Assembly: GCF_019112525.1 (NCBI RefSeq)
Contig: NZ_CP077800.1
Location: 2,542,001-2,606,000 of the forward strand
Length of the DNA stretch: 64,000 nucleotides
Reading direction: 5' to 3'
Source: Modestobacter sp. L9-4
GTDB taxonomy: Bacteria; Actinomycetota; Actinomycetes; Mycobacteriales; Geodermatophilaceae
This document shows, one piece after another, positions 14,286 through 36,542 of this stretch. Position numbers and translations under genes: made by a program. The notes beneath the pieces were generated by a model. It searched no databases and was not told the DNA's origin. It saw nothing but the letters and a program-made list of their open reading frames with translations. How positions within the stretch are numbered: the first letter of the stretch is position 1; each line of letters begins with the position of its first letter.

Positions 14286-14563
14286 GGTCGCTCCCCTCGT
14301 CAGGTCGGCGGGGCGTCGTTCACACGATCTTCACGTTCCGATCCGCCAGTGTGACGGTTCGTCCCGACCCCGGCGACCAGTGGGCGGACGGCCGGCGAAC
14401 AGCGGCTGAACGCGGCGCCCGCCCTCCGCGGAGGACCTCCTGGGGTGCCCGGGACGGGTGGGTCGCCGGGCGTTGCCCGGGCGGCTCCGGGCCGCCTAGG
14501 GTCTGCGCGCCGGAGGCGGCCGGGCAGGCCGGTCTGGCGGGACGGCGCGGGCGGGGGCAGGTC

Positions 14564-16234
14564 GTGCGGACGGAAACCAGGGCAGGACGGCGGCAGCGCC
14601 GGAGCACCGCGCGGACGAGCGCCGCGCGGACGAGCGCCGTGCGGACGAGCGCCGTGCGGACGAGCGCCGTGCGGACGAGCGCCGTGCGGACGAGCGCCGT
14701 GCGGGCGAGCGCCGTGCGCAGGGGTGCCGCGCGGGCCGGTGTCGTGCTCGCGGTGGTCACGGCCGTGCTGTGCTCGCTGGGGCTGTCGAGCGCCTCGGCG
14801 GCCGCCTACCCCTCGCCGTCCGGTGGCACGCGGGACGTGCGCGGCGCCGTCCTCGACCGGTACCTGGCCCTGGGCGGTCCGGCCGGCCGGCTGGGCGGTC
14901 CGCTGACCGACGAGCTGGCCACCCCGAACGGCCGCGGCGCGTACAACCACTTCGCCGGCGGCTCGATCTACTGGTCCCCGCCCACCGGCGCGCACATGGT
15001 CGTCGGGGCGGTCCGCGACCGCTGGGGAGCGTGGGGCTGGGAGAACGGCCGGCTGGGCTTCCCGGTCACTGACGAGGTGGCCACCCCGAACGGCCGCGGT
15101 GCCTACAACGGGTTCGAGGGCGGCTCGGTCTACTGGTCCCCGCCCACCGGCGCGCACGTCGTGGTCGGCGCCATCCGCGACCGCTGGGCGGCGTGGGGCT
15201 GGGAGAACGGTCGGCTCGGTTTCCCGGTCACCGACGAGGTGGCCACCCCGAACGGCCGAGGTGCCTACAACGGGTTCGAGGGCGGCTCGGTCTACTGGTC
15301 GCCCGACACCGGGGCGCACATGGTCGTCGGCGCCGTCCGCGACCGCTGGGCCGCGCTGGGCTGGGAGAACGGCCGGCTGGGCTTCCCGGTCACCGACGAG
15401 GTGGGCACCCCGAACGGCCGCGGCGCGTACACCGCGTTCCAGGGCGGGGCCGTCTACTGGTCACCCGGCAGCGGCGCGCACGCCGTCGTCGGCGCGATCC
15501 GCGACCGCTGGGGGACCCTGGGCTGGGAGAACGGCAGCCTCGGGTTCCCGACGTCGGAGGAGTACGCGGTCCCCGGCGGGCAGGCCCAGGACTTCCAGGG
15601 CGGCCGGATCACCTCGACCTGGGCCACCGGTGCCGTGGTCACCACCGGGCTCCCGGCCGGCGTCGTCCCGCCGGGCAGCCAGGTGGTCACCGTGCGCGCC
15701 CCCTCGGCCGGGTCGACCACCGCGACGCTCACCGCCTGGCAGCTGGGCGCCACGGGCTGGACGCCGGTGGTCGGGCCGGTGGCGGCGCGGGTCGGGTCGG
15801 GCGGGATCGGCGCGGCCAGCGAGAGCAGCACCCGCACGCCGGCCGGCACCTTCGGGCTCAGCGAGGCCTTCGGCCGGGCCGGCAACCCGGGGACGGCGCT
15901 GCCCTACCGGGTCGTGGACCGCAACGACTGGTGGGTCTCCGACGTCGGCAGCGGCCGCTACAACACCTACGCCCGCTGCGCACCGGGCACCTGCGACTTC
16001 TCCGAGGCGGTCTCCGAGAACCTCTACGGCGCCGGCTCGGTCTACGACGAGGCGGTGGTGATCGACTACAACCGCTGGCCGGCGGTGCGCGGTGCGGGCT
16101 CGGCGTTCTTCCTGCACATCGCCAACTCCTCGCCCACGGCCGGCTGCGTCTCCACCGACCGGGGCAGCCTGGAGGCCGTCCTGCGCTGGCTGCGCCCGGA
16201 CGCCCGCCCGGTCATCAGCATCGCCGTCGGCTGA
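14564..16234 (+). CDS. Secreted LGFP-repeat protein with L,D-transpeptidase-like domain
   Basis: A 556-residue protein from a GTG at 14564 with GGGGGCAGG upstream. Residues 1-60 are very Arg-rich and include seven RTSAV-type pentapeptides. They lead into a hydrophobic signal core (GVVLAVVTAVLCSLGL) ending ASA. Next come about five LGFP repeats of 54 residues (wall- or mycolate-type anchoring in actinobacteria). The C-terminal 190 residues resemble an L,D-transpeptidase-type (YkuD-like) catalytic domain: FFLHIANSS is followed by PTAGCVSTD, where the Cys would be the nucleophile and the His its partner. A role in peptidoglycan binding and cross-linking or trimming is likely. Confidence 0.85.
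   Translation: MRTETRAGRRQRRSTARTSAARTSAVRTSAVRTSAVRTSAVRTSAVRASAVRRGAARAGVVLAVVTAVLCSLGLSSASAAAYPSPSGGTRDVRGAVLDRYLALGGPAGRLGGPLTDELATPNGRGAYNHFAGGSIYWSPPTGAHMVVGAVRDRWGAWGWENGRLGFPVTDEVATPNGRGAYNGFEGGSVYWSPPTGAHVVVGAIRDRWAAWGWENGRLGFPVTDEVATPNGRGAYNGFEGGSVYWSPDTGAHMVVGAVRDRWAALGWENGRLGFPVTDEVGTPNGRGAYTAFQGGAVYWSPGSGAHAVVGAIRDRWGTLGWENGSLGFPTSEEYAVPGGQAQDFQGGRITSTWATGAVVTTGLPAGVVPPGSQVVTVRAPSAGSTTATLTAWQLGATGWTPVVGPVAARVGSGGIGAASESSTRTPAGTFGLSEAFGRAGNPGTALPYRVVDRNDWWVSDVGSGRYNTYARCAPGTCDFSEAVSENLYGAGSVYDEAVVIDYNRWPAVRGAGSAFFLHIANSSPTAGCVSTDRGSLEAVLRWLRPDARPVISIAVG
14611..14715. repeat. Seven 15-bp tandem repeats in the signal-peptide region
   Basis: The unit gcggacgagcgccgt is repeated seven times with one or two changes, plus a decayed eighth copy to 14730. 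It encodes RTSAV pentapeptides that extend the positive n-region of the signal peptide. Confidence 0.95.
14872..15600. repeat. Near-identical 162-bp LGFP-domain repeats
   Basis: The block containing gagaacggccggctgggctt recurs every 162 bp (near 15041, 15203, 15365 and 15527). Each unit encodes one 54-residue LGFP repeat. DNA identity between the middle copies is very high, suggesting recent duplication or gene conversion. Confidence 0.92.
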
Positions 16235-18451: not shown

Positions 18452-19077
18452 GTCGTCCGGGAGCCGGTCGAGGAGGAGTCGGGGTGCCGGTGCCGCCGGC
18501 GGCGGGCGGCGACCAGGTTGAGCACCACGCCGACCAGCAGCACGAGCACGGTGGCGATGAGGGTGGCCACCAGCGGGGAGTCGAACACCCCGCCGCTGAC
18601 CACGCCGAGCAGCGCGTAGGCCACCGCCCACAGCAGCGCCGCGGCCAGCGACGCCGGCAGCAGCCGCCGCCACGGGTAGGCCAGCGCACCGGCGGCGACC
18701 AGCACCGGGATGCGGCCGGCGGGCAGCAGCCGGCCGACGACGACGATCTGCCAGCCGTGCCGGCGGAACTGCTCGCGCACCTCGTCGATGCGGTCGGCGT
18801 GCTGCCCGCGGGACACCCAGCGCACCGCCGAGGGGCCGCCGAACCGGCAGACGGTGAACGTGACGACGTCCCCGACGAAGGCGCCCAGGGTCGACAGCAG
18901 CACGACCACCGGCAGCGAGAGCTGCCCGCCGCTGACGGCCACCGCGGCGGCCGCGCCGACGACGGCGCCGGTGGGCACGACCGGGACGACCGAGCCCAGC
19001 AGCACCCCGCCGAAGACCAGCGGGTAGCCCAGCGAGCTGCCGTCGGTCCAGCTGACGGCCAGGACGTCGACCGTCAC
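18448..19077 (-). CDS. DedA-family membrane protein
   Basis: A 209-residue DedA/SNARE-associated (VTT-domain) protein. It opens with hydrophobic segments and carries the family features LGAFVGDVVTFTVCRFGG and VVVGRLLPAGRIPVLVAAGALAYPWRRLL, the latter holding the conserved Arg and Pro of the re-entrant loop. DedA proteins are linked to recycling (flipping) of undecaprenyl phosphate or phospholipids. The GTG start at 19077 overlaps the stop of the upstream MBL gene and its own stop overlaps the next start, so the three genes should be translated together. Confidence 0.9.
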   Translation of the reverse strand: MTVDVLAVSWTDGSSLGYPLVFGGVLLGSVVPVVPTGAVVGAAAAVAVSGGQLSLPVVVLLSTLGAFVGDVVTFTVCRFGGPSAVRWVSRGQHADRIDEVREQFRRHGWQIVVVGRLLPAGRIPVLVAAGALAYPWRRLLPASLAAALLWAVAYALLGVVSGGVFDSPLVATLIATVLVLLVGVVLNLVAARRRRHRHPDSSSTGSRTT

Positions 19078-19935: not shown

Positions 19936-22551
19936 TCACGCCTGGGCGTGGGCGCGCGGCACCGGCAGCGGGGTGGGCAGCGTCGTCGAGGGGTGCCGCA
20001 GCAGGGTGGCGACCTGGCCGGCGGTGAGCCCGCTGGGCAGCACGGGCCCGGTGACCGCCATCTGGCACGCGGCGCCGATGGCGGCGAGGAGCTCGGGGCT
20101 GCCGACGCCGCTGGCGAAGGTGTAGACGTCGAAGGCGGCGGCGCTGGAGGCGATGGCGGTGAGCACCCGCATCGTCCGGTCGAGGTCGCCGGGGGCGGCG
20201 AGACCGCGCACGTCCACCTGGACGGTGTCCAGGGGGAGGCGGGCCAGCTGCGACCACAGCGTGGAGCCCATGCCGAAGTCGTTGAGGCACAGGTGCACCC
20301 CGGCGGCGCGCACGGTGTGGAGCGCGGGGATGAGCCCGGCCGACGACGTCTGCAGGACCTCCTCGTCGAAGGCCAGGGCCAGCTGGCGGGGTGCCAGACC
20401 GGCCTCGGCCAGCGCCGCGGTGATCTCCCCGGCGAGCTCGTCGGCGCGCACCTGACCGGCGGGCAGGTCGAACCCCAGCGTCAGCTCGCCGTCCAGGGCG
20501 GCGACCTCGGCGCAGGCCTGGCGGAGCAGCCACTGCTGCAGCGCCCCGTTGACCCCCTGCCGCTCGGCGGCCGCCCACAGCTCGGGGGCCGGCAGCACAC
20601 CGAGCACCGGGTGCACCCACACCGGGGTGCTGTGCAGCCCGTAGACCTCGCCGGTGTCGCTGGTGGTCACCACGTCGTAGCGCAGCTGCACCTCACCGGC
20701 GTCCATGGCGGCGGCGACGTCGCTGCTGGCGGTGGCCCGGGCCGACGGGTCGTCGGTGTGCACCCGCCAGCAGCCCTTGCCGGCCTGCTTCGCCTCGCCG
20801 AGCGCGGCGTCGGCCAGCCGGAAGGCGTGCTGACCGCCGCCGGGGTGCAGCTGGGCCAGCCCGACGCTGGCGCCGACGGTGAAGCTGCGGTTGCCGACCC
20901 GGTAGGGGTGGGCCAGGACGTCGACGACCCGCCCGGCCGCCTCGACGGCGTCCTCCTCGGCGCCGGCCACGAGGACGGCGAACTCGTCGCCGCCGAGGCG
21001 GGCGACCAGGTCGTCGGTGCGCAGCAGGCTCTGCAGCCGGCGGGCCACCTCGACCAGCAGCAGGTCGCCGGCCTCGTGCCCCGCGGAGTCGTTGACGGCC
21101 TTGAAGCCGTCGAGGTCGAGCACCAGCAGGCAGCGCTGCCCGGTGGCGGAGGTGACCGCGGCCATCTCCTGGAACAGCATCGCCCGGTTGGGCAGCCGGG
21201 TGAGGTGGTCGGTGAAGGCCATCCGCTCCAGCTCGCGCTCGCGGCGGCGGCGGGTGGTGACGTCGCGCAGGTGCAGCACCCGCCGGCCGCTGCCGGGGCG
21301 CTCGTGGTGGGTGACCTCGAGCTCGCGCGGCTCGCCACCGGCGTCCTGCACGCGCAGGTGCAGGGCGGGGGCGACCTCGCCGGTGCCGACGGCCAGCTCG
21401 AGGCGCACCCGGGCACGGTCCTCGACGTGCAGCAGGTCCAGCAGCGAAGGGTGCAGGTCCGAGTCGAGGACGCCCAGCAGAGTGCGGGCCGCGGGGGAGG
21501 TGAACTCCAGGCGGAGGTCGGCGTCGACGATGGCCACGCCGTCGGAGCTGGCCTCCACCAGCCCGCGGAAGTCCTCCTCGCTGCGGACCAGTTCGGCCTG
21601 CACGCGCCCGCTCTCCCGGATGCGCAGCACGATCCGCACCAGCAGCATCGTGATGACCACGGCGGTGCAGGCGATCGCGCCGTCGTGCAGCGGCATGTCG
21701 CGCACGATCGCGGTGAGCAGCGTGATCGGGACGCCGACCAGCGCGGCGACCTGCACGGCGACCCCGGCGGCGTTGACGCCCGGGGTGGCGTCGGCCGGTG
21801 AGCTGCTCGCCGCCGCGTCGACGGCGAGCCGGACGGCCCGGACGGAGACGACGAGCGCGGCGGCGACGGCAGCGTCGGCGGCCCAGGCCCAGGGGGCGGA
21901 GGGCACCACGATGTAGACCGCCTGCAGCGCCGAGCCGGCGCCGACCAGGGCGGTCATCGCGATGACCGCGGTGGCCGACCGGCGCACGGCCTTGGTGGAG
22001 ACCGTGCACAGGGCGCCCACGACGCCGATCGCGACCGCCGGGTAGGCGCCGTAGCCGGCCACGAGGGGGATCAGGTCGGCGCGCACGGCGCCGGGGGACA
22101 GCGCGGGGGACAGGACCAGCACGTCGGCCACGACGACGAGGGCGAAGGCGACCATCACCCCGTCGACGACCAGCAGCGGCCAGTTGGTGCCGCGGACCCG
22201 GCCGCCGAGCAGGGCCGCGCTGACCGGCGGGCCGAACGCGCTCACCAGCACCAGCAGGTCACCGGGGCCCAGGGCGCCGATGCCGCCGCCGATGCCGAGG
22301 CCGGTGGCCAGGCTCGCCACCGTGAACACCAGCGAGCTGATGCCGAGCACCTGCCAGGGCAGCCGGTCGCGGCGGCTCATCTGCCGGGTGAGCCGGCGGC
22401 AGTGCCAGGCGGCCCAGCCGCCGACGAGGGCCAGCACCAGGTTGTCCCACTCCGGCACGGAGCCGGGTGAGCTGGACGGGCCGGTGGCGGCCAGGGCCAG
22501 CAGGGTGGCCACGAGCACCGCGGTCAGCGGGGCACGACGGAAGGGGTTCAC
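19936..22551 (-). CDS. Membrane GGDEF protein with degenerate EAL domain
   Basis: An 871-residue protein. About eight hydrophobic segments occupy residues 1-290. A PAS-like domain follows near 315-430 and a GGDEF domain with intact GGDEF near 517. The C-terminal EAL-type domain has lost catalysis: EAL is replaced by HST, DDFGTG by NDFGMG, the catalytic Lys by Gln (VQVDV), and EGVET by SGVGS. It should therefore make c-di-GMP and could use the EAL fold only for binding or regulation. The GTG start overlaps the stop of the upstream EAL protein. Confidence 0.9.
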   Translation of the reverse strand: MNPFRRAPLTAVLVATLLALAATGPSSSPGSVPEWDNLVLALVGGWAAWHCRRLTRQMSRRDRLPWQVLGISSLVFTVASLATGLGIGGGIGALGPGDLLVLVSAFGPPVSAALLGGRVRGTNWPLLVVDGVMVAFALVVVADVLVLSPALSPGAVRADLIPLVAGYGAYPAVAIGVVGALCTVSTKAVRRSATAVIAMTALVGAGSALQAVYIVVPSAPWAWAADAAVAAALVVSVRAVRLAVDAAASSSPADATPGVNAAGVAVQVAALVGVPITLLTAIVRDMPLHDGAIACTAVVITMLLVRIVLRIRESGRVQAELVRSEEDFRGLVEASSDGVAIVDADLRLEFTSPAARTLLGVLDSDLHPSLLDLLHVEDRARVRLELAVGTGEVAPALHLRVQDAGGEPRELEVTHHERPGSGRRVLHLRDVTTRRRRERELERMAFTDHLTRLPNRAMLFQEMAAVTSATGQRCLLVLDLDGFKAVNDSAGHEAGDLLLVEVARRLQSLLRTDDLVARLGGDEFAVLVAGAEEDAVEAAGRVVDVLAHPYRVGNRSFTVGASVGLAQLHPGGGQHAFRLADAALGEAKQAGKGCWRVHTDDPSARATASSDVAAAMDAGEVQLRYDVVTTSDTGEVYGLHSTPVWVHPVLGVLPAPELWAAAERQGVNGALQQWLLRQACAEVAALDGELTLGFDLPAGQVRADELAGEITAALAEAGLAPRQLALAFDEEVLQTSSAGLIPALHTVRAAGVHLCLNDFGMGSTLWSQLARLPLDTVQVDVRGLAAPGDLDRTMRVLTAIASSAAAFDVYTFASGVGSPELLAAIGAACQMAVTGPVLPSGLTAGQVATLLRHPSTTLPTPLPVPRAHAQA

Positions 22552-25214
22552 GACGCCGTCCCGTCAGCCGGGCCGGCGGTACGGGTGGCGGTGCGCGGGC
22601 CGGGGATGCCGGGCAGCCCGGTGGCCAGCGCGTCGGCGTCCAGCGGGCGGGAGAGCAGGAAGCCCTGGATGAAGCGGTGGCCCATGTCGCGCAGCAGCTG
22701 CAGCTCGGGCTGGGTCTCGACGCCCTCGACGATCACCGCGAGCCCCAGGCTGGTGCCCAGGTGCAGCACCGAGGAGCACAGCGCGCGGCGCTGCGGGTCG
22801 GTCTCGACGTCGGCGAGGAAGGCGCGGTCCATCTTCAGCACGTCGATGGGCAGGCCCACGAGGTAGGCCAGCGACGACCAGCCGGTGCCGAAGTCGTCGA
22901 CGGCGATCCGGACGCCGAGCTGGCGCAGCGTGGCCAGGTCGTCGGTGACGTGGGCGTCGTCGAGCAGCACCGACTCGGTGATCTCCAGGACCAGCCGGGC
23001 GGCGGGCAGGCCGCTGGTCTCCAGCGCCTGCAGGACGTCGGCGACCAGCTCGCCGCTGCGCACGTGCCGCGCGGAGATGTTGACCGCGACGCCGAGGTCG
23101 CGGTGCGGCCCGGCGGCGAGGGTGGACATGGCCTCGGCCAGCACCCAGCGGCTGAGCTCGGTGATCAGCGCCGACTCCTCGGCCAGCGGGATGAACTCGG
23201 CGGGGGAGACCTCGCCGTAGGTGGGGTGCCGCCAGCGCAGCAGGGCCTCAACCGACACGGTGCGGTGCAGGGCCAGGTCGACGACCGGCTGGTAGACCAG
23301 CCGCAGCTGGCCGAGCTCGAGGGCGCGGTGCAGGTCGGTGCGCAGCGACTCCTGGCGGTCCTGGGTGATGCGCAGGGCGTCGGAGTGGCGGCGCACCCGG
23401 CCGGGGCCCGCGGCGCGGGCGCTGCGCAGCGCCAGGTCGCCGCGGCGCAGCCCCTCGCCGGCATCGACGTCGGAGCCGAGGGAGGCGATGCCGGCGACCG
23501 CGGTGAGCCGCAGCGTGCCGGTGCCGGTGGCGACCGGTTCGACGGCGGCGACGAGCCGGGTGGCGACCACCTCGGCGTCGGCGATGGTGCCGTCGACCAG
23601 CACGGCGAACTCGGCCCCGCCGGCGCGGGCCAGCCAGTCGTCGCCGCGCAGGGCGCGGGTGAAGCGGGTGGTCAGCTCGCGCAGCACCGGCAGGTCGTCG
23701 ACGCCGGGCAGGCCGTCGACGCCGAGCAGCACGAGTGAGGTGGCGGGCACGGCCGGGTCGCGCAGCAGGGCACCGAGCCGCGTGGTCAGCGCCGAGCGGT
23801 TGGGCAGCCCGGTGGCCGGGTCGGTGGTGGTGAAGGCGGCGAGGTCGGGCTCGGTGGGCGCCGGTGCGGTGGCGGTGACGTCGCGGCAGTAGAGCACCAG
23901 CCCGCCGACGTCGGGGTCGCTGCGCAGGTCGCGCACCTGGGCCTGGATGAGCCGCCAGCGACCGTCGGCGTGCCGGATCCGGGCGTTGCGGGTCTTGCTG
24001 TGGCCGGCCTCGGCGGACACCGCGGACAGGGCGGTGGTCACGCTCGCGGCGTCGTCGGGGTGGACGACGTCGGTCATCCGGCCGCCGACGATGAGTGCCG
24101 GGTCCAGGCCCAGCAGGTCGGTGATGGAGGGGGAGACCCAGCGGACGGTGAGCTGGTCGTCGAGGATCACGACCGGGTCGGCGCTGCTGCGCACCAGGGC
24201 GCGGAAGTAGGCCTCGCTGCGCTGCAGCTCGGTGGTCAGCTGCTGCTCGGTGCGCCAGGAGACGGCCTGGTGGGCCAGCAGGGCGCCCAGGCCGAGGATG
24301 CCCAGCGTCGTGCCGAAGACGGTCAGCCGGCCGGTCACGAGCACGCTGACCAGCAGCAGGCAGCCGCCGGCCATCGCGGTGCAGTGCGGCAGCAGGGCCC
24401 CCAGGGTGGAGCCGCCCTGGCTGTCGGCCGGGACCGGCCGGTCGTCGGGACGGTCGGCGCGGCAGGCGACGACCAGCAGGCCGAGCCCGAGGACGCTGGC
24501 CGCGCAGGCCAGGTACTGGACGGTGCCCGGGCCGTCCGCGACGGAGGAGAAGGCGCCGGCCAGTGCGGTGGCGACCTGGGCGGCGAACAGCAGCCAGCCG
24601 ATCGTGCGCTGCCGCACGGAGGCGAGGGCGACGAAGACCAGGGACAGGCCGGTGCCCAGCGCGATGCTGGCCAGGAGGGCGAACAGCGCGACCGTCTGGG
24701 GGAGGGAGAGCACCCCGGACGAGCCGATCGTCAGCCGGTAGACCGTGTGCACGGTCAGCAGGTCGGCGAGCACGAACAGGGTGAGCATCGTGGCCAGCTG
24801 TGCCCGGGCCGCCCGCAGGGGCGCCCGGTCCAGCATCCGGAACACCGCGACGACGACGAGCAGCTGGCCGGGGACGCTGCCCAGCGCCGTCTGGCCCATG
24901 GGCAGCACCGCGCCCAGGGCGAGTGCCCCCAGGGTGCTCACCGCGACGGAGACGACGTACCAGCGCCAGCCCGCGGGGTGGGCGCTGGTGCGGCCGCTGC
25001 GGGTCAGCTGGACCAGGACGACCGCGACGGCCAGGAAGTTGAGCGTGACGGCCACCGGGACCGCCAGACCGCCGGGCAGCAGACCGGCCGCGAGCGTGGC
25101 GAGGGCGGCCAGGGCGGCGAGGAGCAGGTGCCGGCTGATGGCGGGGGAGGCCGTGCCGCCATGTCGAGGGGCGGTCACGGCCCGCGCCGGTGCGGCGAGG
25201 ACTCCGGTGGTCAC
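22548..25214 (-). CDS. Membrane c-di-GMP phosphodiesterase with degenerate GGDEF domain
   Basis: An 888-residue protein from a GTG at 25214. Hydrophobic segments fill residues 20-300, then a PAS domain, then a GGDEF-like domain reading GGAEF near 533, then a complete EAL domain. EALLRWRHP lies near 657, with NISARH, EITES, DDFGTGWSSL, KMDR and EGVET all in place. It should hydrolyse c-di-GMP, with the Asp-to-Ala change abolishing cyclase activity. It is architecturally the twin of the downstream protein, whose defects are the reverse. The two overlap by 4 nt. Confidence 0.92.
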   Translation of the reverse strand: MTTGVLAAPARAVTAPRHGGTASPAISRHLLLAALAALATLAAGLLPGGLAVPVAVTLNFLAVAVVLVQLTRSGRTSAHPAGWRWYVVSVAVSTLGALALGAVLPMGQTALGSVPGQLLVVVAVFRMLDRAPLRAARAQLATMLTLFVLADLLTVHTVYRLTIGSSGVLSLPQTVALFALLASIALGTGLSLVFVALASVRQRTIGWLLFAAQVATALAGAFSSVADGPGTVQYLACAASVLGLGLLVVACRADRPDDRPVPADSQGGSTLGALLPHCTAMAGGCLLLVSVLVTGRLTVFGTTLGILGLGALLAHQAVSWRTEQQLTTELQRSEAYFRALVRSSADPVVILDDQLTVRWVSPSITDLLGLDPALIVGGRMTDVVHPDDAASVTTALSAVSAEAGHSKTRNARIRHADGRWRLIQAQVRDLRSDPDVGGLVLYCRDVTATAPAPTEPDLAAFTTTDPATGLPNRSALTTRLGALLRDPAVPATSLVLLGVDGLPGVDDLPVLRELTTRFTRALRGDDWLARAGGAEFAVLVDGTIADAEVVATRLVAAVEPVATGTGTLRLTAVAGIASLGSDVDAGEGLRRGDLALRSARAAGPGRVRRHSDALRITQDRQESLRTDLHRALELGQLRLVYQPVVDLALHRTVSVEALLRWRHPTYGEVSPAEFIPLAEESALITELSRWVLAEAMSTLAAGPHRDLGVAVNISARHVRSGELVADVLQALETSGLPAARLVLEITESVLLDDAHVTDDLATLRQLGVRIAVDDFGTGWSSLAYLVGLPIDVLKMDRAFLADVETDPQRRALCSSVLHLGTSLGLAVIVEGVETQPELQLLRDMGHRFIQGFLLSRPLDADALATGLPGIPGPRTATRTAGPADGTAS

Positions 25215-25740: not shown

Positions 25741-28700
25741 GTGAAGACGTGGCTCGACGCGTGGCCGGTGTTCCGGCAGCTCACTGGTAACGACCCGCTC
25801 GCTCGCGGTGTGGCCGCGCGCAGCAAGGCCACCGAACAGGTGGTCAGCCGCACGGCCACCGCCGACCGGGTGGTGAAGTCGGTCTGCCCGTACTGCGCTG
25901 TCGGTTGCGCGCAGCGGGTCTTCGTCAAGGACGAGAAGATCGTCCAGATCGAGGGCGACCCCGACTCCCCGATCAGCCGCGGCCGGCTCTGCCCCAAGGG
26001 CAGCGCCAGCAAGGGCCTGGTCAACAGCCCCTCCCGCGTGACGACGGTCAAGTACCGCCGTCCCTACGCGACGGACTGGGAGGACCTGGACCTCGACACG
26101 GCGATGGAGATGATCGCCGACCGCGTGCTGGAGGCCCGCGAGAAGGGCTGGCAGACCGAGGACCACGGCAAGCGGGTCAACCGCACCATGGGCTTCGCCA
26201 GCCTCGGCGGCGCGACCCTGGACAACGAAGAGAACTACCTGATGAAGAAGCTGTACAGCGCCCTGGGCGCTGTACAGATCGAGAACCAGGCCCGCATATA
26301 GCACTCTTCGACGGTTCCCGGTCTGGGAGCCTCGTTCGGCCGTGGTGGCGCAACCAACTTCCTCGAGGACCTCGCGAACAGCGACTGCATCGTCATCGAG
26401 GGCTCGAACATGGCCGAGTGCCATCCGGTCGGGTTCCAGTGGGTGTCGGAGGCGAAGGCCCGCGGCGCCAAGATCATCCACATCGACCCGCGGTTCACGC
26501 GCACGTCGGCGATCGCCGACCTGCACGTCCCGCTGCGTCTGGGCACCGACATCGCGTTCCTCGGTGGCCTGATCAAGTACGTCCTGGACAACGAGCTGTT
26601 CTTCAAGGACTACGTCGTCGCCTACACCAACGCCGCGTCGCTGGTGGGTGAGGACTTCGTCGACACGGAGGACCTCGAGGGCCTGTTCTCCGGCTTCGAC
26701 CCGGAGAAGGGCCAGTACGACGAGCGCACCTGGGCCTACGAGCCCTCCGAGGTGCCGCACGCCAGCTCCGACGACCCCGCGGGGGCCGCCGCGCAGGAGG
26801 CCGGCAAGCAGGCCGACGACGTCGAGGCCAGCGACCAGTCGCAGACCCACGGCAGCGGTGGCCCGACCATCCCGGCCAAGCCCAAGCGCGACGAGACCCT
26901 GCAGCACCCGCGCAGCGTCTTCCAGGTGCTCAAGCGGCACTTCGCCCGCTACACCCCCGAGATGGTCTCCGACGTCTGCGGCATCGAGCCCGCGGTCTTC
27001 GAGCAGGTCGCCAAGTGGGTCACCAGCAACAGCAACCGCGACCGGACGACGGCGTGGGTGTACTCGGTGGGCTGGACGCAGCACAGCGTCGGCGCGCAGT
27101 ACATCCGCTCGTGCTCGATCCTGCAGCTGCTGCTGGGCAACATCGGGCGCCCCGGCGGCGGCATCATGGCCCTGCGCGGCCACGCCAGCATCCAGGGCTC
27201 GACCGACGTCCCGACGCTGTACAACCTGCTGCCGGGCTACCTGCCCATGCCGCACGCGGGGCAGCACCAGACGCTGGCCGACTACGTCGCCGACGCCGCC
27301 GGCAAGGGCGGCTTCTGGGGCAACAAGCCCGCCTACATCACCAGCATGCTCAAGTCCTGGTGGGGCGACGCGGCGACGGCGGAGAACGACTTCGCCTTCG
27401 ACTACATCCCCAAGATCAACGGCGACCACAGCTCCTACCGGACGATCGCGGACATGATCGCCGGCAAGGTGCACGGTTACTTCCTGGTCGGGGAGAACCC
27501 CTCCGTCGGGCACCCCAACGGCAAGATGAACCGGTTCGGGCTGGCCAACCTCGACTGGCTGGTCGTCCGCGACCTGCAGATGATCGAGTCGGCGACCTTC
27601 TGGAAGGAAGGGCCCGAGATCGAGACCGGCGAGATGGCGCCGGAGACGATCGGCACCGAGGTCTTCTTCATGCCCGCGGCGACGCACACGGAGAAGGAGG
27701 GCACCTTCACCCAGACGCAGCGACTGCTGCAGTGGCGGGAGAAGGCCGTCGAGCCGCCGATGGACGCCCGCAGCGACCTGTGGTTCTACTTCCACCTGGG
27801 CCGCATCATCCGCGAGCGCCTGGCGTCCTCGACCGATCCGCGGGACCGGCCCGTCCAGCACCTGACCTGGGACTACCCGACCATCGGGGAGACCGCCGAC
27901 CCCGACGCGACCGCCGTCCTGCGGGAGATCAACGGCACCGGCCCCGACGGGCGGGCGCTGTCGACCTACATCGACATGAAGGACGACGGGTCGACCACCG
28001 GCGGCTGCTGGATCTACACCGGCGTCTACGCCGACGAGGTCAACCAGGCCGCCCGCCGCAAGCCGGCGCGCGAGCAGGGCCAGGTCGCCTCCGAGTGGGG
28101 CTGGGCGTGGCCGCTCAACCGCCGGATGCTCTACAACCGTGCCTCCGCCGACCCGGACGGCAAGCCGTGGAGCGAGCGCAAGAAGTACGTGTGGTGGGAC
28201 GAGGCCGCCGGCCGCTGGACCGGTGACGACGTCCCCGACTTCGAGGCGACCAAGCGGCCGGACTACGTGCCTCCGGAGGGCGCTCGGGCGCAGGCCGCCA
28301 TCGGCGGTGCCGACCCGTTCGTCATGCAGGGCGACGGCAAGGGGTGGCTGTACGCCCCGGCCGGGCTGGTCGACGGCCCGATGCCGACGCACTACGAGCC
28401 CTCGGAGTCCGTGGCCGAGAACCACCTGTACGCCCAGCAGTCCAGCCCGACCATCGAGCGGATCGCCGGGCCGTGGAACCGGGAGAACCCCTCGCGCAGC
28501 GAGGTCTACCCCTTCCAGGTGACCACCTACCGGCTCACCGAGCACCACACCGCCGGTGGCATGAGCCGCACCCTGCCCTACCTGTCCGAGCTCCAGCCGG
28601 AGTTCTTCGTCGAGGTCTCACCCGAGCTCGCCGAGCTCCGCGGCCTGACCAACGGCGAGTTCGCCACGCTGATCAGCGCCCGGACGGCGATCGAGGCCAA

Positions 28701-29034
28701 GGTGCTGGTGACCGAGCGGATGCGCCCGATCAAGCTCAAGGGCGGGCAGGTCGTGCACCAGATCGGCATGCCGTACCACTGGTCCTACGCGGGTCTGTCC
28801 ACCGGCGACAACGCCAACGACCTGCTCGGGATCATCCTGGACGCGAACACGCACATCCAGGAGGACAAGGTCAGCACCGCCGACATCCAGCCCGGCCGCC
28901 GGCCGCGTGGACCGGAGCTGCTGGACTACGTCGAGGCCTACCGGATGCGGGCCGGCGTGAAGTCGGGCCGGGTGGGGCTCAACGGCCGCGCCCCCGACGA
29001 GGACCCGAGCGCCATGGAGGCGTCAGGCGCATGA
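25741..29034 (+). CDS. fdhA: Selenocysteine-containing formate dehydrogenase catalytic subunit, Sec encoded by UAG
   Basis: One 1097-residue protein read through an in-frame UAG at 26299-26301 as selenocysteine, residue 187. It oxidises formate to CO2 at a bis-molybdopterin Mo/W site whose metal ligand is this Sec. The GTG at 25741 is the first possible start after an in-frame TGA at 25717. A [4Fe-4S] motif uses C49, C52, C56 and C84. The stretch IENQARI, Sec, HSSTVPGLGASFGRGG matches the active site of selenoenzyme FDHs, and AECHPVGFQW follows. The C-terminal molybdopterin-dinucleotide-binding domain ends near 1097. No Tat signal is visible, so the catalytic side may be cytoplasmic. First gene of fdhABC. 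Confidence 0.96.
26251..26277 (+). other. Perfect 12-bp hairpin 21 nt upstream of the UAG-Sec codon
   Basis: Arms 26251-26262 and 26266-26277 are exact reverse complements with a 3-nt loop, inside fdhA codons for LYSALGAVQ. The right arm uses GCT and GTA, which are unusual choices in this GC-rich gene but are needed for pairing. A ribosome with UAG in its A site would leave this hairpin just outside the mRNA exit. Function is inference. Confidence 0.75.
26299..26301 (+). other. UAG codon read as selenocysteine
   Basis: The in-frame TAG stands exactly where FDH selenoenzymes have UGA: cgc-ata-TAG-cac encodes R-I-Sec-H. Homology is continuous on both sides, and a SECIS hairpin starts 11 nt later. 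UAG still serves as an ordinary stop nearby, for example at 32450-32452. Confidence 0.95.
26309..26334 (+). promoter_or_regulatory. Bacterial SECIS element in fdhA
   Basis: A 7-bp stem (26313-26319 with 26325-26331, one G-U pair) closes a GGTCT loop (26320-26324). An outer 3-bp stem (26309-26311 with 26332-26334) is separated by one bulged C at 26312. The stem begins 11 nt after the UAG. E. coli fdhF also has 11 nt after UGA, then GGUU, three bases and a GGUCU loop, so both the register and the SelB-contact loop are the same. Confidence 0.93.
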
Positions 29035-29075
29035 CCACCGGTCCACTGATCACTGAGAACGGGGAACGGCGATGA
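29031..29075 (+). CDS. 14-codon coupling ORF between fdhA and fdhB
   Basis: An ATG at 29031 overlaps the fdhA stop (ATGA). Fourteen codons later its TGA overlaps the fdhB ATG in the same way. It has GGAGG 10 nt upstream. The peptide reads MTTGPLITENGERR. It could carry ribosomes from fdhA to fdhB or be chance. No function can be assigned to the peptide itself. Confidence 0.35.
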   Translation: MTTGPLITENGERR

Positions 29076-30160
29076 CCACGGTCAGCTCGGCCAGTCCCTC
29101 CCTGGAGGGGGCCGACTCCAGGAACCGGCTGTTCGGGCCGCTGCCCGACGTCACGGCCGATGCCGGGTACGAGGAGGAGCACCCCGCGCGGGTGGGCTTC
29201 TTCACCGACACCTCGGTGTGCATCGGCTGCAAGGCCTGCGAGGTGGCCTGCAAGGAGTGGAACACGCTCCCGATGGACGACTCGCACGGTGTGCTCGGCC
29301 AGATGGGCATGTCCGGCATGTCCTACGACAACACCGGGCAGCTGGGCGCCAACTCGTGGCGGCACGTGTCGTTCATCGAGCAGAGCCGCTCGGTCGACCT
29401 GCCGATGCCCACGATCGGGATGCCCGGCGCCGACCGGCACGACGACGCCCACGGCCACGGTCACGACCACGACGTCAGCGCGATCAGCCCGCAGGCCGAC
29501 GGCCCGCTCTCCGCACAGACGAGCGTGCTCAACGCCGAGGCGCTGAGCGAGTTCGACCCGCAGACCTCCGTCACCGGCGGCGACGGCGGCACGCAGATCC
29601 GCTGGCTGATGTCCTCCGACGTCTGCAAGCACTGCACGCACGCCGGCTGTCTCGACGTCTGCCCGACCGGTGCGCTGTTCCGTACCGAGTTCGGCACCGT
29701 CGTGGTGCAGGGCGACATCTGCAACGGTTGCGGCTACTGCGTCTCGGCCTGCCCCTACGGCGTCATCGACGTCCGCAAGGACGACGGCCGGGCCTTCAAG
29801 TGCACGATGTGCTACGACCGCCTGACCGACGGGCTGCAGCCGGCGTGCGCCACGGCGTGCCCGACGCAGTCGATCCAGTTCGGTGACCTCGACGAGCTGC
29901 AGGCCCGGGCCGACGCCCGGCTGGCGACGCTCAAGGGCCAGGGCGTGGAGACCGCGCGGCTGTACGGCCGCGACGAGAGCGACGGCGTCGGCGGCGTGGG
30001 CGCTTTCTTCCTGCTGCTCGACGAGCCCGAGGTCTACGGCCTGCCGCCGGACCCGATCGTCACCACCCGCGACCTGCCCGCCATGTGGAAGGCCGCGGCG
30101 ACGGGTGCGGCGATGATCGTCGGCGTGGTCGTGTCCTCCTTCTTCGGACGGCGGCGCTGA
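29072..30160 (+). CDS. fdhB: Formate dehydrogenase iron-sulfur subunit
   Basis: A 362-residue electron-transfer subunit with sixteen cysteines for four [4Fe-4S] clusters. CIGCKACEVAC lies at 50-60, CKHCTHAGCLDVCP near 190, CNGCGYCVSACP near 225, and CTMCYD with CATACP near 250-270. It passes electrons from FdhA to the membrane subunit. A His/Asp-rich insert (DRHDDAHGHGHDHD) lies between the first and second cluster motifs and is not part of the conserved core. A single hydrophobic segment near the C-terminus (AAMIVGVVVSSFFG) probably anchors it to the membrane. The fdhC start overlaps its stop. Confidence 0.94.
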   Translation: MTTVSSASPSLEGADSRNRLFGPLPDVTADAGYEEEHPARVGFFTDTSVCIGCKACEVACKEWNTLPMDDSHGVLGQMGMSGMSYDNTGQLGANSWRHVSFIEQSRSVDLPMPTIGMPGADRHDDAHGHGHDHDVSAISPQADGPLSAQTSVLNAEALSEFDPQTSVTGGDGGTQIRWLMSSDVCKHCTHAGCLDVCPTGALFRTEFGTVVVQGDICNGCGYCVSACPYGVIDVRKDDGRAFKCTMCYDRLTDGLQPACATACPTQSIQFGDLDELQARADARLATLKGQGVETARLYGRDESDGVGGVGAFFLLLDEPEVYGLPPDPIVTTRDLPAMWKAAATGAAMIVGVVVSSFFGRRR

Positions 30161-31371
30161 TGACCACCCCGAGCAGCACCAGCCCGGACGACGCGCACCT
30201 CAACGGCCGGTCGCTGGACAGCGGGCCCACGGGCAACGAGCCAGCCGGTGAGGCGCCGCTGGCCGCCGCGGCCGGTGGCTGGCACCGCGCCGGTGGCCAG
30301 GACCTGACCCGGCCCAAGCGCAAGCGCCGCAAGGGCGGCGGCGGGTGGGGGAGTGGCAACCGCGAGGCGGCCATGGTCCCCGAGGCGGAGTTCACCTCCT
30401 ACTACGGCCGGCAGATCGTCAAGACGCCGACGTGGAAGAACCCCGAGGTGCCGCTGTACCTGTTCCTCGGCGGTGCCGCGGGCACGTCGTCGGTGCTGGG
30501 TGCGCTGGCGGAGTTCACCGACCGGCCGACGCTGGCCCGCAACGCCGAGTACGCGGCGGCTGCGGCCGCGCTGGGCTCGGTCGTGCTGCTGATCGACGAC
30601 CTGGGCCGCCCGGAGCGCTTCCTGCACATGCTGCGGGTGTTCAAGCCGACGTCGCCGCTGTCGGTGGGCTCCTACATCCTGTCGCCGTTCAGCGCGTTCA
30701 CCTCCGCCGCGGCCGGCTTCCGGCTGCTGGAGCTGGCGCCGCTGCTGAAGCTGGGCACGAAGGTGCTGCCGTTCCTGCCCGCGCTGGCCCGGTTCTTCCC
30801 CGCCGCCCGCAAGGCGTCGGCGATCGGTGCGGCGGCGTTCGGCGGGCCGATGGCCACCTACACCGCGGTGCTGCTGGCCAACACGGCCGCGCCGAGCTGG
30901 CACGAGGCGCACACCGAGCTGCCCTACGTCTTCGCCGGGTCGGCGATGGCGGCCGGCGGTGGCATCACCATGGCGCTCACCCCGGTCGCGGAGGCCGGGC
31001 CCTCGCGCAAGACGGCGCTGACCGGTGTCGCCCTGGAGCTGTTCATGATCAACAAGGTCGAGAACGGCCACGGGTTGGTCAGCGAGCCGTACCACGAGGG
31101 CAAGGCCGGCACGCTGCTCCGCGCGGCCAAGAAGTCCACGATCACCGGTGCCGCGTTCGTCGCGCTGCTGGGCCGCACCCGCGTCGGGGCGATCGTCGGC
31201 GGCACGCTGCTGGCCGCGGGCTCGGTGATGACCCGCATGGGCGTCTTCGAGGCCGGCATCGCCAGCACGAAGGACCCGAAGTACATCGTCATCCCGCAGA
31301 AGGAGCGGATGGCGGCGCGAAAGGCCGGCGAGGCGGTCGCCGCGGACGAGGCCCGTTCCGTCGTCCGTTGA
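30160..31371 (+). CDS. fdhC: NrfD/PsrC-type membrane subunit of formate dehydrogenase
   Basis: A 403-residue protein. The ATG at 30160 overlaps the fdhB stop, which decides the start. About 75 hydrophilic residues, including a basic KRKRRK patch, precede the NrfD domain. Several hydrophobic segments follow, with the family features PLYLFLGGAAGTSSV and LGRPERFLHMLRVFKPTSPLSVGSYIL. The latter carries the conserved residues near the quinone site. It should hand electrons to menaquinone, linking formate oxidation to respiration. Downstream is a strong terminator, so the operon is fdhABC only. No maturation factor (fdhD) is present here. Confidence 0.92.
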   Translation: MTTPSSTSPDDAHLNGRSLDSGPTGNEPAGEAPLAAAAGGWHRAGGQDLTRPKRKRRKGGGGWGSGNREAAMVPEAEFTSYYGRQIVKTPTWKNPEVPLYLFLGGAAGTSSVLGALAEFTDRPTLARNAEYAAAAAALGSVVLLIDDLGRPERFLHMLRVFKPTSPLSVGSYILSPFSAFTSAAAGFRLLELAPLLKLGTKVLPFLPALARFFPAARKASAIGAAAFGGPMATYTAVLLANTAAPSWHEAHTELPYVFAGSAMAAGGGITMALTPVAEAGPSRKTALTGVALELFMINKVENGHGLVSEPYHEGKAGTLLRAAKKSTITGAAFVALLGRTRVGAIVGGTLLAAGSVMTRMGVFEAGIASTKDPKYIVIPQKERMAARKAGEAVAADEARSVVR

Positions 31372-31450: not shown

Positions 31451-32452
31451 ATGGCCGTCAGCCCGCACCCAGACCTGCACGGACCGGTCGCGATCGTCGC
31501 CGGAGGGCTCTCGCACGAGCGGGCGGTGTCGCTGCTGTCCGGGGAGCGGATCCAGCGCGAGCTGCAGTCGGTGGGCGTGGACGCGCACGTGGTCGACGCC
31601 GACCAGTCGCTGCTGGCGTCGCTGCGCTCCGGTGGGTACGCCGCCGTGATCCCGACGATCCACGGTGACATCGGCGAGGACGGCACGCTGCAGACCGTGC
31701 TGGAGATGGCCGGCGTGCCGTTCACCGGCTCGGACTCCCGGGCCTGCCGGCTGGCGTGGGACAAGACGGTGGGCCGCACGCTCACCGAGCGCGCGGGGCT
31801 GTCCGCGCCCCCGTGGGTGGCGCTGACCAGCTCGTCGTTCAAGGAGCTGGGCAGCAGCGAGGTCGTGCGCTTCCTGGTGGAGGACATGAGCTGGCCGCTG
31901 GTGGTCAAGCCCAACCGGGGCGGCAGCGTGCTGGGCGTCAACGGCGTGGAGAGCGTCGACGCCCTGGTCGACGCGCTCATGCAGGCCTTCGCCTACGGCG
32001 ACACGGTGCTGGTGGAGAGCTTCACCGAGGGCATGGACGTCAGCGTCGCCGTGCTGGACGTCGACGGCGCCCCGCGCGCCGGGCAGCCGGTGGGCCTGGA
32101 GTACGACCGCAAGGACCGCTTCGACTTCGTCGCCCGCTACGACCCGGCCCGCGTGCAGGTGCACGCCCCCGCCGAACTGCCCGCCGAGACCCTGGCGGCG
32201 CTGCGTACGGCGGCGGAGACGGCGCACACGGCGCTGGGCATGCGAGACCTGTCCCGGGTGGACTTCCTGGTCGCCCCGGACGGCGAGTTCGTGGTGCTGG
32301 AGGTGTCGGCCGTGCCCGGGATGACCGCCACGTCGCTGTTCCCGTTCAGCGTGCAGTCCGACGGCGGTTCGTTCAGCTCGACGCTGGTGTCCCTGCTGAA
32401 GGCCGCCGTCTCCCGCACTGCGCCGTCCGAGGCGGGAGCAACAGCGCCCTAG
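31451..32452 (+). CDS. D-alanine--D-alanine ligase-like ATP-grasp protein
   Basis: A 333-residue ATP-grasp enzyme with the Ddl layout: N-terminal AIVAGGLSHERAVSLLSG, the signature HGDIGEDGTLQ near residue 73, and the ATP-binding lysine in VVKPNRGGS near 154. The metal-binding end reads LEVSAVPGMTATSLFP. Standard Ddl has EVNTxPG there, so the metal-ligand Asn is Ser. It ends with UAG used as a normal stop. A second Ddl-like gene lies at 33845-34963; either could be the housekeeping ligase or act on another dipeptide-like substrate. Confidence 0.82.
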   Translation: MAVSPHPDLHGPVAIVAGGLSHERAVSLLSGERIQRELQSVGVDAHVVDADQSLLASLRSGGYAAVIPTIHGDIGEDGTLQTVLEMAGVPFTGSDSRACRLAWDKTVGRTLTERAGLSAPPWVALTSSSFKELGSSEVVRFLVEDMSWPLVVKPNRGGSVLGVNGVESVDALVDALMQAFAYGDTVLVESFTEGMDVSVAVLDVDGAPRAGQPVGLEYDRKDRFDFVARYDPARVQVHAPAELPAETLAALRTAAETAHTALGMRDLSRVDFLVAPDGEFVVLEVSAVPGMTATSLFPFSVQSDGGSFSSTLVSLLKAAVSRTAPSEAGATAP

Positions 32453-33844: not shown

Positions 33845-34963
33845 TCAGCGGGTGGGACCACCCAGGTTGGCGAGCTTGCCGGCGATGCCGCCGGCGGCGC
33901 GGAGAGCTTCACCGCGGGCGAACACGGTGGGAGCCTCGTTGGAGCTGCGACCGCGCACCGCCTGCTCGAGGGCGTTGGTCAGCAGCGCGGCGGGGGAGTC
34001 GTCGGGCCACAGGTACAGCGACATGGCGCCGGGGATGTTGTTGACCTCGTTGACGAACACCTCGGTGCCGTCGCTGAGGAAGTCCAGCCGGGCGAGGCTG
34101 CCCAGCCCGACCAGGCCGGCGACCTGCTCGGCCAGCGAGCGGATCCGGGCGGCGAGCTCGTTGGAGATCGGGGCGGGCATCTCCCGGGGTGCCTTGCTGA
34201 GCCCGGACGTGTGCAGGTACTTGTCCGAGTAGCTGTAGATCGAGTCGGAGCCGGGGCGGATCGGCTTCTCGATCAGTGAGGCGCGGAACGTCGGGTAGGT
34301 GATGACCGCGACGTTGAGGTCGTACAGGTCGGGCCGGTAGGGCTCGAGCACGGCGCCGTCGGCCAGGTGCACGTTCTGCTTGGCCAGCCCCTTGGCGGCC
34401 GCGAGGTCTTGGACGACCTCGATGCCGATGCTGGAGCCACCGAAGCGCGGCTTGACGATGTAGGGACCGTCGAAGTCGGGGTCGGCATGACCGTCACCGA
34501 CGATCAGCCGGGGGAGGGTCGGCAGCCCCGCCTGGGCGATGACCGAGCCGAAGGCGAGCTTGTCGACCGACAGGGCGCCGGCGAACAGCGAGCCGCCGGT
34601 GGAGGGCAGGCCCATCCAGTCGAACAGCGCACGGGCGCCGCCGGCTTCGGCGTAGCCACCGTGGAAACAGCTGAGCACGGCCTCGGGGCGGTAGGTCTTG
34701 GGACGCAGGCCCTTGACCGGGCGCCAGCCGCCGCTGCGACCGAGCACCGGTTCCACCTGGGTGGCCCGGGCGGGGGCGCCGTCGATGAAGTCGCGGGCCT
34801 CGCTGTCGACCGGGACGGTGTGCCAGTTGCCACCGCGGTCCCAGTAGACGGCGAGGACGTCGAGCCCGCTCTGGTTCAGCAGCCGTGCGGCCTGCAGGCC
34901 GGTCAGGATGCTGATGTCGTGCTCGGCCGAGGGACCACCGAATGCGACGGCGACCTGCTTCAT
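33845..34963 (-). CDS. Ddl-like ATP-grasp ligase of the MurF-like operon
   Basis: A 372-residue ATP-grasp protein: VAVAFGGPSAEHDISILTG at the N-terminus, YIVKPRFGGSSIGIEVV carrying the ATP lysine near 172, and the intact metal-binding end VNEVNNIPGAMSLYLW. The segment after the first domain (residues 60-110) is longer than in classical Ddl, and HGxxGEDG is replaced by HGGYAEAGG. It is the last gene of an operon with an alpha/beta hydrolase and a membrane MurF-like ligase. The trio suggests synthesis and attachment of a dipeptide- or amino-acid-like unit outside the standard peptidoglycan set. That role is inference. Confidence 0.85.
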   Translation of the reverse strand: MKQVAVAFGGPSAEHDISILTGLQAARLLNQSGLDVLAVYWDRGGNWHTVPVDSEARDFIDGAPARATQVEPVLGRSGGWRPVKGLRPKTYRPEAVLSCFHGGYAEAGGARALFDWMGLPSTGGSLFAGALSVDKLAFGSVIAQAGLPTLPRLIVGDGHADPDFDGPYIVKPRFGGSSIGIEVVQDLAAAKGLAKQNVHLADGAVLEPYRPDLYDLNVAVITYPTFRASLIEKPIRPGSDSIYSYSDKYLHTSGLSKAPREMPAPISNELAARIRSLAEQVAGLVGLGSLARLDFLSDGTEVFVNEVNNIPGAMSLYLWPDDSPAALLTNALEQAVRGRSSNEAPTVFARGEALRAAGGIAGKLANLGGPTR

Positions 34964-35018: not shown

Positions 35019-36542
35019 TCACGGGTAGTGATCAGGCAGGTCGTTCTCGAACAGTACGACGTCCCCCGGTTCGGCCTTGCCGGAGATGTGGGCCATCGCC
35101 GCCACCCGGCTGTTGACCAGCACGGTGCGGTCGGGCGTCGACCCGGCCACCAGCGGACGGCGGTTGGTGCCGCCGACGATGACCAGCGTGGCGCCCGGGG
35201 TGGCCATGACCTGCTCGGCGAACTCACGGTTGCGCTGGTCCTGGGAGGAGCCCAGCTCGACCATGCCCGGCGTGACGACCCAGACCCGGTGGCCCTCGCC
35301 GAGCTGACGGGCCAGCGCCAGGGCCTGCGCCGCGCCGTCCGGGTTGGCGTTGTACGTGTCGTCGATGACGTGGATGCCGGCCTCGTTGACCGAGGCCTCG
35401 GCACGGTGCGCGACACCGGGGAGCTTGCGGGCCACGGTGGCCTCGATGCTGGCCCACGAGACGCCCAGGACCCGGGCGATGCCCGTGGCGATGGCCAGGT
35501 TGACCGGGTGTCCACCGCCCGGGGGCTGCGCGATCCGCGTCGTCCCACGACCCTCGTCGGTCAGCACCCACCCCTCGCCCTCGGGCACCACTCGGACATC
35601 GGCGACGGTGTCGGGGCGGGTGGAGACCCGGACGACGGTCTTGGCCGACTGCAGCCGGTCGGCGGCCTCGGCGAGCTCGGGGACGTCGATGTTGAGGACG
35701 ACGATCTCGGCGCGCTCGGTGATCTCGAGCTTGGCGGTGACGATGTTGGCCCGGCTGCCCATGCGCTCCAGGTGCGCCTCGCCGATGGTGGTGATGGCGG
35801 CGATGCGGGGCGGGAAGGTCTCCGTGAGCCGGCGGATCTCGCCGGGGCCATAGGTGCCCATCTCGGCGACGAACACCTCGGTGGAGCCGGACAGCCCGTC
35901 GTTGATGCTCCGGGACAGCCCCATCATGTTGTTGAAGCTGGCCGGGCTGGCGAAGACGTTCTTCTCCGGCGCCAGCAGGGCCTCGACGTAGGCCTTCGTG
36001 GAGGTCTTGCCGTAGGAGCCGGTGATGGCCACGACGTCGGGGGAGACGGCGGTCAGCCGGGCACGGGCGCTGGTCACGAACTTCTCGCCGAGCTTGGCCT
36101 CGACCGGCTTCAGCGCAGCCAGGACGGCGTCGGTGACCGGCGCGGTGAAGAGCACCAGCGCGGCGCTGACGGCGGGGGAGCGGAACGCGACGGCGGCGGC
36201 GACCTGGACGGCGACCGTGCCGCCGGCCAGCCGACGCAGCCGCTGGGTGAACGCCGGGCGCGGGAACGGCTTGCGGAACACCAGTCCGACCGGCGCTGCG
36301 GCGGCGGCCAGAGCGGCCGGGATGCCCAGCACCGGGTAGCGGAAGGCGCCGGCAGCGCAGACGGCGCCCACGGCATAGGGCAGCACCGACACCGGCGTGC
36401 GGGTGGCCCACATGCGCAGCATCGCGGTGTTGCGGCCGGGCTCGTAGTGCTCGCGCTGGGCGACGCGCCACCACGTGAGGTCGGCAGCAGCGGTCCCGGC
36501 GGCGACGGCCACCCACTCTGCGGCAGTGAGGCCGGCGCTCAC
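35019..36542 (-). CDS. Membrane-associated MurF-like Mur ligase
   Basis: A 507-residue protein. Residues 1-140 hold about four hydrophobic segments, a feature absent from soluble MurF. The central Mur ligase domain has the ATP loop ITGSYGKTSTK at 173-183 and EMGTYGPGEIRRL. HLERMGS follows the usual GEAHLE motif, and the C-terminal domain contains DDTYNANPDGAAQAL, typical of MurF. All catalytic landmarks are present, so it should join an amino acid or dipeptide to a carboxylated acceptor, probably at the membrane. The neighbouring Ddl-like enzyme would supply the dipeptide. Its start overlaps the alpha/beta hydrolase stop. Confidence 0.87.
   Translation of the reverse strand: MSAGLTAAEWVAVAAGTAAADLTWWRVAQREHYEPGRNTAMLRMWATRTPVSVLPYAVGAVCAAGAFRYPVLGIPAALAAAAAPVGLVFRKPFPRPAFTQRLRRLAGGTVAVQVAAAVAFRSPAVSAALVLFTAPVTDAVLAALKPVEAKLGEKFVTSARARLTAVSPDVVAITGSYGKTSTKAYVEALLAPEKNVFASPASFNNMMGLSRSINDGLSGSTEVFVAEMGTYGPGEIRRLTETFPPRIAAITTIGEAHLERMGSRANIVTAKLEITERAEIVVLNIDVPELAEAADRLQSAKTVVRVSTRPDTVADVRVVPEGEGWVLTDEGRGTTRIAQPPGGGHPVNLAIATGIARVLGVSWASIEATVARKLPGVAHRAEASVNEAGIHVIDDTYNANPDGAAQALALARQLGEGHRVWVVTPGMVELGSSQDQRNREFAEQVMATPGATLVIVGGTNRRPLVAGSTPDRTVLVNSRVAAMAHISGKAEPGDVVLFENDLPDHYP

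Follow-up and report, generated by a model that had tools for sequence, protein, structure and literature searches.

An in-frame UAG codon in a Modestobacter formate dehydrogenase gene is very probably decoded as selenocysteine

The fdhA gene of a Modestobacter genome, from a soil actinobacterium, is interrupted by an in-frame TAG, and we asked whether this codon ends the protein or is read as an amino acid. The gene lies in the stretch of 64,000 nucleotides analyzed here (the window, C1:2542001-2606000), taken from a genome that consists of one contig of 4,224,113 bases. Its frame runs from a GTG at 25741 to a TGA at 29032-29034, and the sole internal stop is the TAG, in the context R-I-*-H-S-S-T; reading through it yields a protein of 1097 aa with U187. 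This protein matched NF041513, the NCBIfam model for actinobacterial formate dehydrogenase (FDH), over residues 4-1069 with 1895 bits (curated cut-off, 1400), the full-length match of a molybdopterin Sec-type formate dehydrogenase, and it contains Fe4S4, molybdopterin, and dinucleotide-binding domains. Its best match among solved structures was the FDH of Desulfovibrio gigas (1h0h, E 2e-212), where the counterpart of residue 187 is the X of QARIXHSATV, which we take to be the Sec of that enzyme. The in-frame UAG thus occupies a position known to be Sec in a family of selenoproteins. A preliminary description of this DNA had claimed that fdhA is broken once, by TAG, at the FDH Sec residue and that homology and frame run on to residue 1097, and both observations held. 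From the sequence evidence below, we consider it highly probable (about 0.96) that UAG187 is decoded as selenocysteine by the mechanism proposed here, and nothing that we found counts against it.

Table 1. Features of the fdh locus and an ordinary TAG stop (positions in the window)
Feature	Position	Strand	Evidence
fdhA, formate dehydrogenase catalytic subunit	25741..29034	+	NF041513; Molybdop_Fe4S4, Molybdopterin, and Molydop_binding domains; 1h0h match
TAG selenocysteine codon (predicted), residue 187 of fdhA	26299..26301	+	Aligned with 1h0h Sec position; conserved in family
Bacterial SECIS hairpin, 7-bp stem GGTTCCC/GGGAGCC	26313..26331	+	Fold, spacing, compensatory changes, absence in Cys orthologues
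fdhB, iron-sulfur subunit	29072..30160	+	TIGR01582 FDH-beta, 177.5 bits (below cut-off); Fer4 domains
fdhC, NrfD-type membrane anchor subunit	30160..31371	+	PF03916 NrfD, 51.8 bits
Ordinary TAG stop of D-Ala-D-Ala ligase gene 31451-32452	32450..32452	+	ORF, family match; no SECIS-like signature after

The fdhB and fdhC genes follow with intact reading frames. The three genes had been described as overlapping. This is correct for fdhB and fdhC, where the fdhC ATG and the fdhB stop share one base (30160), but not for fdhA and fdhB, which are separated by 37 bases between the end of fdhA (29034) and the first possible start of fdhB (29072). Directly upstream of the operon, on the opposite strand, are two adjacent long PAS/GGDEF/EAL-like signalling genes (19936-25214, minus). 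The window also contains two neighbouring D-Ala-D-Ala ligase family genes (31451-32452, plus; 33845-34963, minus), the second adjoined by a Mur ligase family gene (35019-36542, minus), and a gene whose product combines five LGFP repeats with a YkuD L,D-transpeptidase domain (14351-16234, plus). An ARAGORN tRNA call at 18564-18659 (minus) is false: it has no proper anticodon, lacks Rfam support, and lies within coding sequence.

An in-frame stop is also what a broken gene would look like, and fdhA could be a pseudogene, or the TAG a sequencing error, with no full-length protein made. However, the same TAG is present at the same residue in 101 genomes and in 58 named loci. Because those 101 are among 115 genomes of the family, the TAG is neither chance nor a sequencing error, and a misread TGA or sense codon at 26299, which the preliminary description had named as refuting its reading, is excluded. 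In addition, fdhA has no other stop in its 1097 codons, coding composition continues 3' of the TAG, and both fdhB and fdhC are intact. Conservation of the TAG therefore refutes this alternative, which we regard as extremely unlikely. The named records nearest to this FDH, at 94% protein identity, are from M. muralis and Modestobacter sp. VKM Ac-2986, which points to a Modestobacter or a near relative as the source of the window. Annotation that takes UGA alone as Sec will go on splitting fdhA.

The preliminary description had predicted a tRNA-Sec with anticodon CUA in this genome and had proposed a search for selA, selB, and selD. The top match to the tRNA-Sec family RF01852 (C1:3632347-3632438; 64.6 bits, cut-off 47) has a CUA anticodon, a variable arm with a stem of 7 bp, and a CCA end that is encoded in the DNA, while the second-best match in the genome is an ordinary tRNA-Ser, leaving only one clear tRNA-Sec. 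Directly after the CUA tRNA is selA (TIGR00474, 411.9 bits), next comes selB (TIGR00475, 282.8 bits), and just upstream, on the other strand, is selD (TIGR00476, 382.7 bits). All three are above cut-off, and they lie about 1.06 Mb from the FDH genes. Thus, the predicted tRNA and the three genes exist, and neither a lack of selB and selC nor a tRNA-Sec with UCA only, either of which would have spoken against the prediction, is the case.

A CUA anticodon would equally suit UAG read as pyrrolysine, and ARAGORN labels this tRNA "tRNA-Pyl" because its anticodon is CUA. However, the variable arm of tRNA-Pyl is 3 nt (PMC7609411), and the CUA tRNA does not have such a short arm; it also adjoins selA and selB, and FDH position 187 is Sec or Cys elsewhere. 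Because of the long variable arm and the above-cut-off match to the tRNA-Sec family, tRNA-Pyl is excluded, and we consider decoding as pyrrolysine extremely unlikely.

Immediately 3' of the codon, beginning 11 nt after the TAG, is a SECIS hairpin. Its loop, GGTCT (26320-26324), starts at position +22 from the first base of the codon, and both the loop and this spacing are identical to those of E. coli K-12 fdhF, which uses UGA. Across 34 distinct TAG sequences, 99.2% of the cells of the stem were paired; all seven pairs formed in 32 of the 34 and the loop was GGTCT in every one. Changes on both sides were found in 22 cells, at one pair (CG, GU, GC, UA). Shuffles fell short of both the covariation score and the percentage paired, and slid controls gave at most 63%. 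The same hairpin is kept in UGA orthologues (123/133 cells paired), whereas in Cys orthologues pairing was no better than in shuffles (108/175 cells) and none of those compared formed all seven pairs. The residue directly before the loop is Pro in Sec forms versus Ala, Ser, or Val in Cys forms, and the Pro is expected if RNA structure fixes the codon.

The hairpin bears on a further alternative, in which a 186-aa peptide ends at the UAG and a second polypeptide begins at ATG 26410, or in which an amber suppressor inserts Ser or Gln. There is indeed an 874-aa ORF with an ATG directly downstream of the TAG, and scarcity of selenium could leave Ser-tRNA unconverted, which counts in favor of Ser insertion. 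However, splitting the enzyme in two would cost it the active-site Sec/Cys together with about 36 conserved residues, and the SECIS shows compensatory changes as in UGA-FDH and is lost where the codon becomes Cys. We therefore judge this alternative very unlikely and favor selenocysteine at UAG187.

Is UAG still a stop codon in this genome? The preliminary description had listed two ordinary genes ending in UAG, the D-Ala-D-Ala ligase gene and an LCP gene at 50754, and both TAG stops are present, the second at 50756-50754 on the minus strand. A rough rule based on composition called 29 genes in the window, with TGA as the stop of 26 and TAG as that of 3, including the Sec site; with the FDH site set aside, UAG ends 2 of the 28 roughly called genes. 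The genome has two TAG triplets with S3-GGTCT-S3 at the right distance downstream, and one of them is that of FDH. The other (L149) is a chance match that lies antisense to an amidohydrolase-like coding frame and lacks a matching stem. Because signature and stem occur together only at the FDH TAG, the SECIS tells the recoded UAG from ordinary ones, which agrees with the earlier view that recoding needs context. Because UAG still terminates ordinary genes, the code is dual-use and SECIS-gated. TGA is the dominant stop here, and it is tempting to suggest that moving Sec away from UGA eased competition.

The sequence shows the codon, the tRNA anticodon, the sel genes, the SECIS, conservation, and co-distribution, and from these we infer charging, SelB binding, and selenium in the protein. 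In the mechanism that we propose, SerRS would charge the long-armed CUA tRNA-Sec with serine, and SelA would convert the Ser-tRNA to Sec-tRNA with selenophosphate from SelD. SelB would then deliver the Sec-tRNA while also binding the hairpin 11 nt past the codon. Sec-tRNA would beat RF1 only at the hairpin-bearing UAG, and UAG elsewhere would stay a stop. Such a system would be a natural genome-wide case of an amino acid changing its stop codon with the decoding machinery kept, and the CUA tRNA, together with the SelA and SelB that belong to it, would constitute a natural amber Sec tool.

We then asked how far the system extends. Among the 115 family genomes, the CUA tRNA pattern was found in 104 and the TAG-FDH pattern in 101, with both in 99. 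TAG-FDH was present in 99 of 104 CUA genomes versus 0 of 7 UCA-only genomes, although these genomes are not independent of one another and a single evolutionary switch may underlie the association. Of the five CUA genomes that lack the FDH pattern, four are incomplete assemblies and one (G081) is damaged at the site; TAG-FDH without a detected tRNA was seen in two genomes (G098 and G099), both incomplete. In G081 (L091, L102, L114), a stretch of roughly 80-105 bases that spans the Sec codon and SECIS is missing from both FDH copies. The two deletions have different break points and lengths and shift the frame; they reflect either gene decay or an artefact of assembly at the hairpin. Another genome, G110 (L071, L072), has CUA tRNA-Sec genes at C255:162092-162183 and C255:221048-221139, about 59 kb apart, each of its two sel loci having its own CUA tRNA-Sec and its own selB.

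The seven genomes with a UCA tRNA-Sec belong to three genera (g6-g8), and no TAG-FDH was found in any of the seven. Members of g8 carry a different type of FDH-like gene, which contains one TGA (RT*HAPS). By pattern search, the TGA form of the fdhA-type FDH was absent from the 115 genomes; matches to the TGA pattern in G106 (L068), upstream of an acyl-CoA dehydrogenase-like gene, and in G099, with the same 20-mer, were due to chance. In a survey of 395 genomes of the class, including two sampled members of this family, full-length FDH matches contained one TGA or no stop, and TAG was the only FDH stop solely in the two sampled Geodermatophilaceae members. One incomplete genome (G485) had both TGA and TAG inside its FDH match. 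Among named FDH records, the codon is TAG in Modestobacter, Blastococcus, Geodermatophilus, Goekera, and Trujillonella; TGA in Actinomycetospora, Paractinoplanes, Quadrisphaera, and others; and TGC in Arthrobacter, Sinomonas, and Luteipulveratus. Judged from genomes, the UAG-Sec system appears to be a general feature of the main genera of Geodermatophilaceae.

The FDH tree places its 35 TAG rows in one clade (SH-aLRT 100) nested among TGA rows, and the Cys rows in another single clade. Because each of these states is one clade, two changes explain all FDH codon states, and a single UGA-to-UAG switch of the FDH codon appears well supported. CUA users also form one clade in the SelB tree (100/100), where the UCA genera of the family were not resolved as their sisters. 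The stem branch of the CUA clade of SelB is long (0.53 changes per column), perhaps because SelB evolved faster or was replaced when the codon switched. The sel operon may have switched in place or may have been imported. At pair 31-39, the last of the anticodon stem, the CUA tRNAs have C-G and the UCA tRNAs of the family U-A. With both anticodon states in related genera, the movement of a Sec codon can be studied by comparison, and the TGA and Cys states of the same FDH serve as controls, including for SECIS loss.

One genome, G060, contains two tRNA-Sec genes. Its own tRNA-Sec is of the CUA type, and a second, divergent UCA tRNA-Sec (G060:C17:1169-1263, minus; L007/L069; 81.8 bits) sits in an IS-rich region of lower GC. 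By its identical Sec-site sequence, G060 is probably Geodermatophilus sp. LHW52908. It has one SelB above cut-off. When the 69-kb contig that carries the UCA tRNA was scanned for selenoprotein genes with UGA or UAG, only noise came up. It is doubtful that some family members such as G060 decode both UAG and UGA as Sec in one cell; if they did, a single elongation factor and a single SECIS code would have to serve tRNA-Sec with either anticodon. Among the closest relatives of the G060 UCA tRNA in a plasmid collection is the tRNA of a Tsukamurella plasmid beside fdh-selD-selA-selB. Complete fdh-selD-tRNA(Sec)-selA-selB cassettes are found on this Tsukamurella plasmid (L291) and on the conjugative Arthrobacter plasmid pYA7-1a (L292), and in actinobacteria Sec decoding thus appears to move together with its FDH as a single mobile unit. 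The cassettes share with the window genome the same genes in the same order (selD on the minus strand, tRNA-Sec, selA, selB). However, their FDH and sel genes form one cluster and their tRNA is a homologue of a UCA tRNA-Sec, whereas in the window genome the two sets of genes are far apart and the anticodon is CUA.

Mukai and colleagues, in 2016, reportedly confirmed UAG-Sec by 75Se labelling or mass spectrometry. The preliminary description cited UAG-decoding tRNA-Sec and selenoproteins from Geodermatophilus and Blastococcus, and it was right in substance: PMC5330540 reports CUA tRNA-Sec in three Geodermatophilaceae genomes, credits this to Mukai et al. 2016, gives FDH and UGSC as the selenoproteins of those genomes, and describes in addition a Sec-TAG AhpC from B. 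saxobsidens DD2. UGSC is a second protein family with TAG at the Sec site (D*GSC): such genes were present in the four CUA genomes tested (G010, G044, G060, and G108), and the UCA genome G074 has Cys at that site. At the sensitivity used, the window genome yielded neither a UGSC gene nor a TAG in AhpC/TSA genes, and among the families tested FDH is its sole UAG selenoprotein. The literature searched did not mention Modestobacter together with selenocysteine. The case described here is a further instance of the system from Mukai et al. 2016, as extended by PMC5330540. The family-wide extent, the UCA-type genera within the family, and a probable Geodermatophilus with both CUA and UCA tRNA-Sec were not found in the literature searched and are new in that respect.

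Compared with the UAG selenoproteins of Geodermatophilus and Blastococcus (Mukai et al. 2016, doi 10.1002/anie.201511657; see PMC5330540), the window genome is of the same family, with a CUA tRNA-Sec and FDH as a target, but it is a Modestobacter and differs in that UGSC and AhpC selenoproteins were not found in it at the sensitivity used. With the UGA system of E. coli (fdhF/selABCD), it has in common SelA, SelB, SelD, a long-armed tRNA-Sec, and a SECIS with a GGUCU loop at +22. The codon, however, is UAG rather than UGA, the anticodon is CUA rather than UCA, and the competitor would be RF1 rather than RF2. Thus, the change from an ordinary UGA system appears to be limited to the codon and its matching anticodon, with a SECIS and sel genes of the usual bacterial kind.
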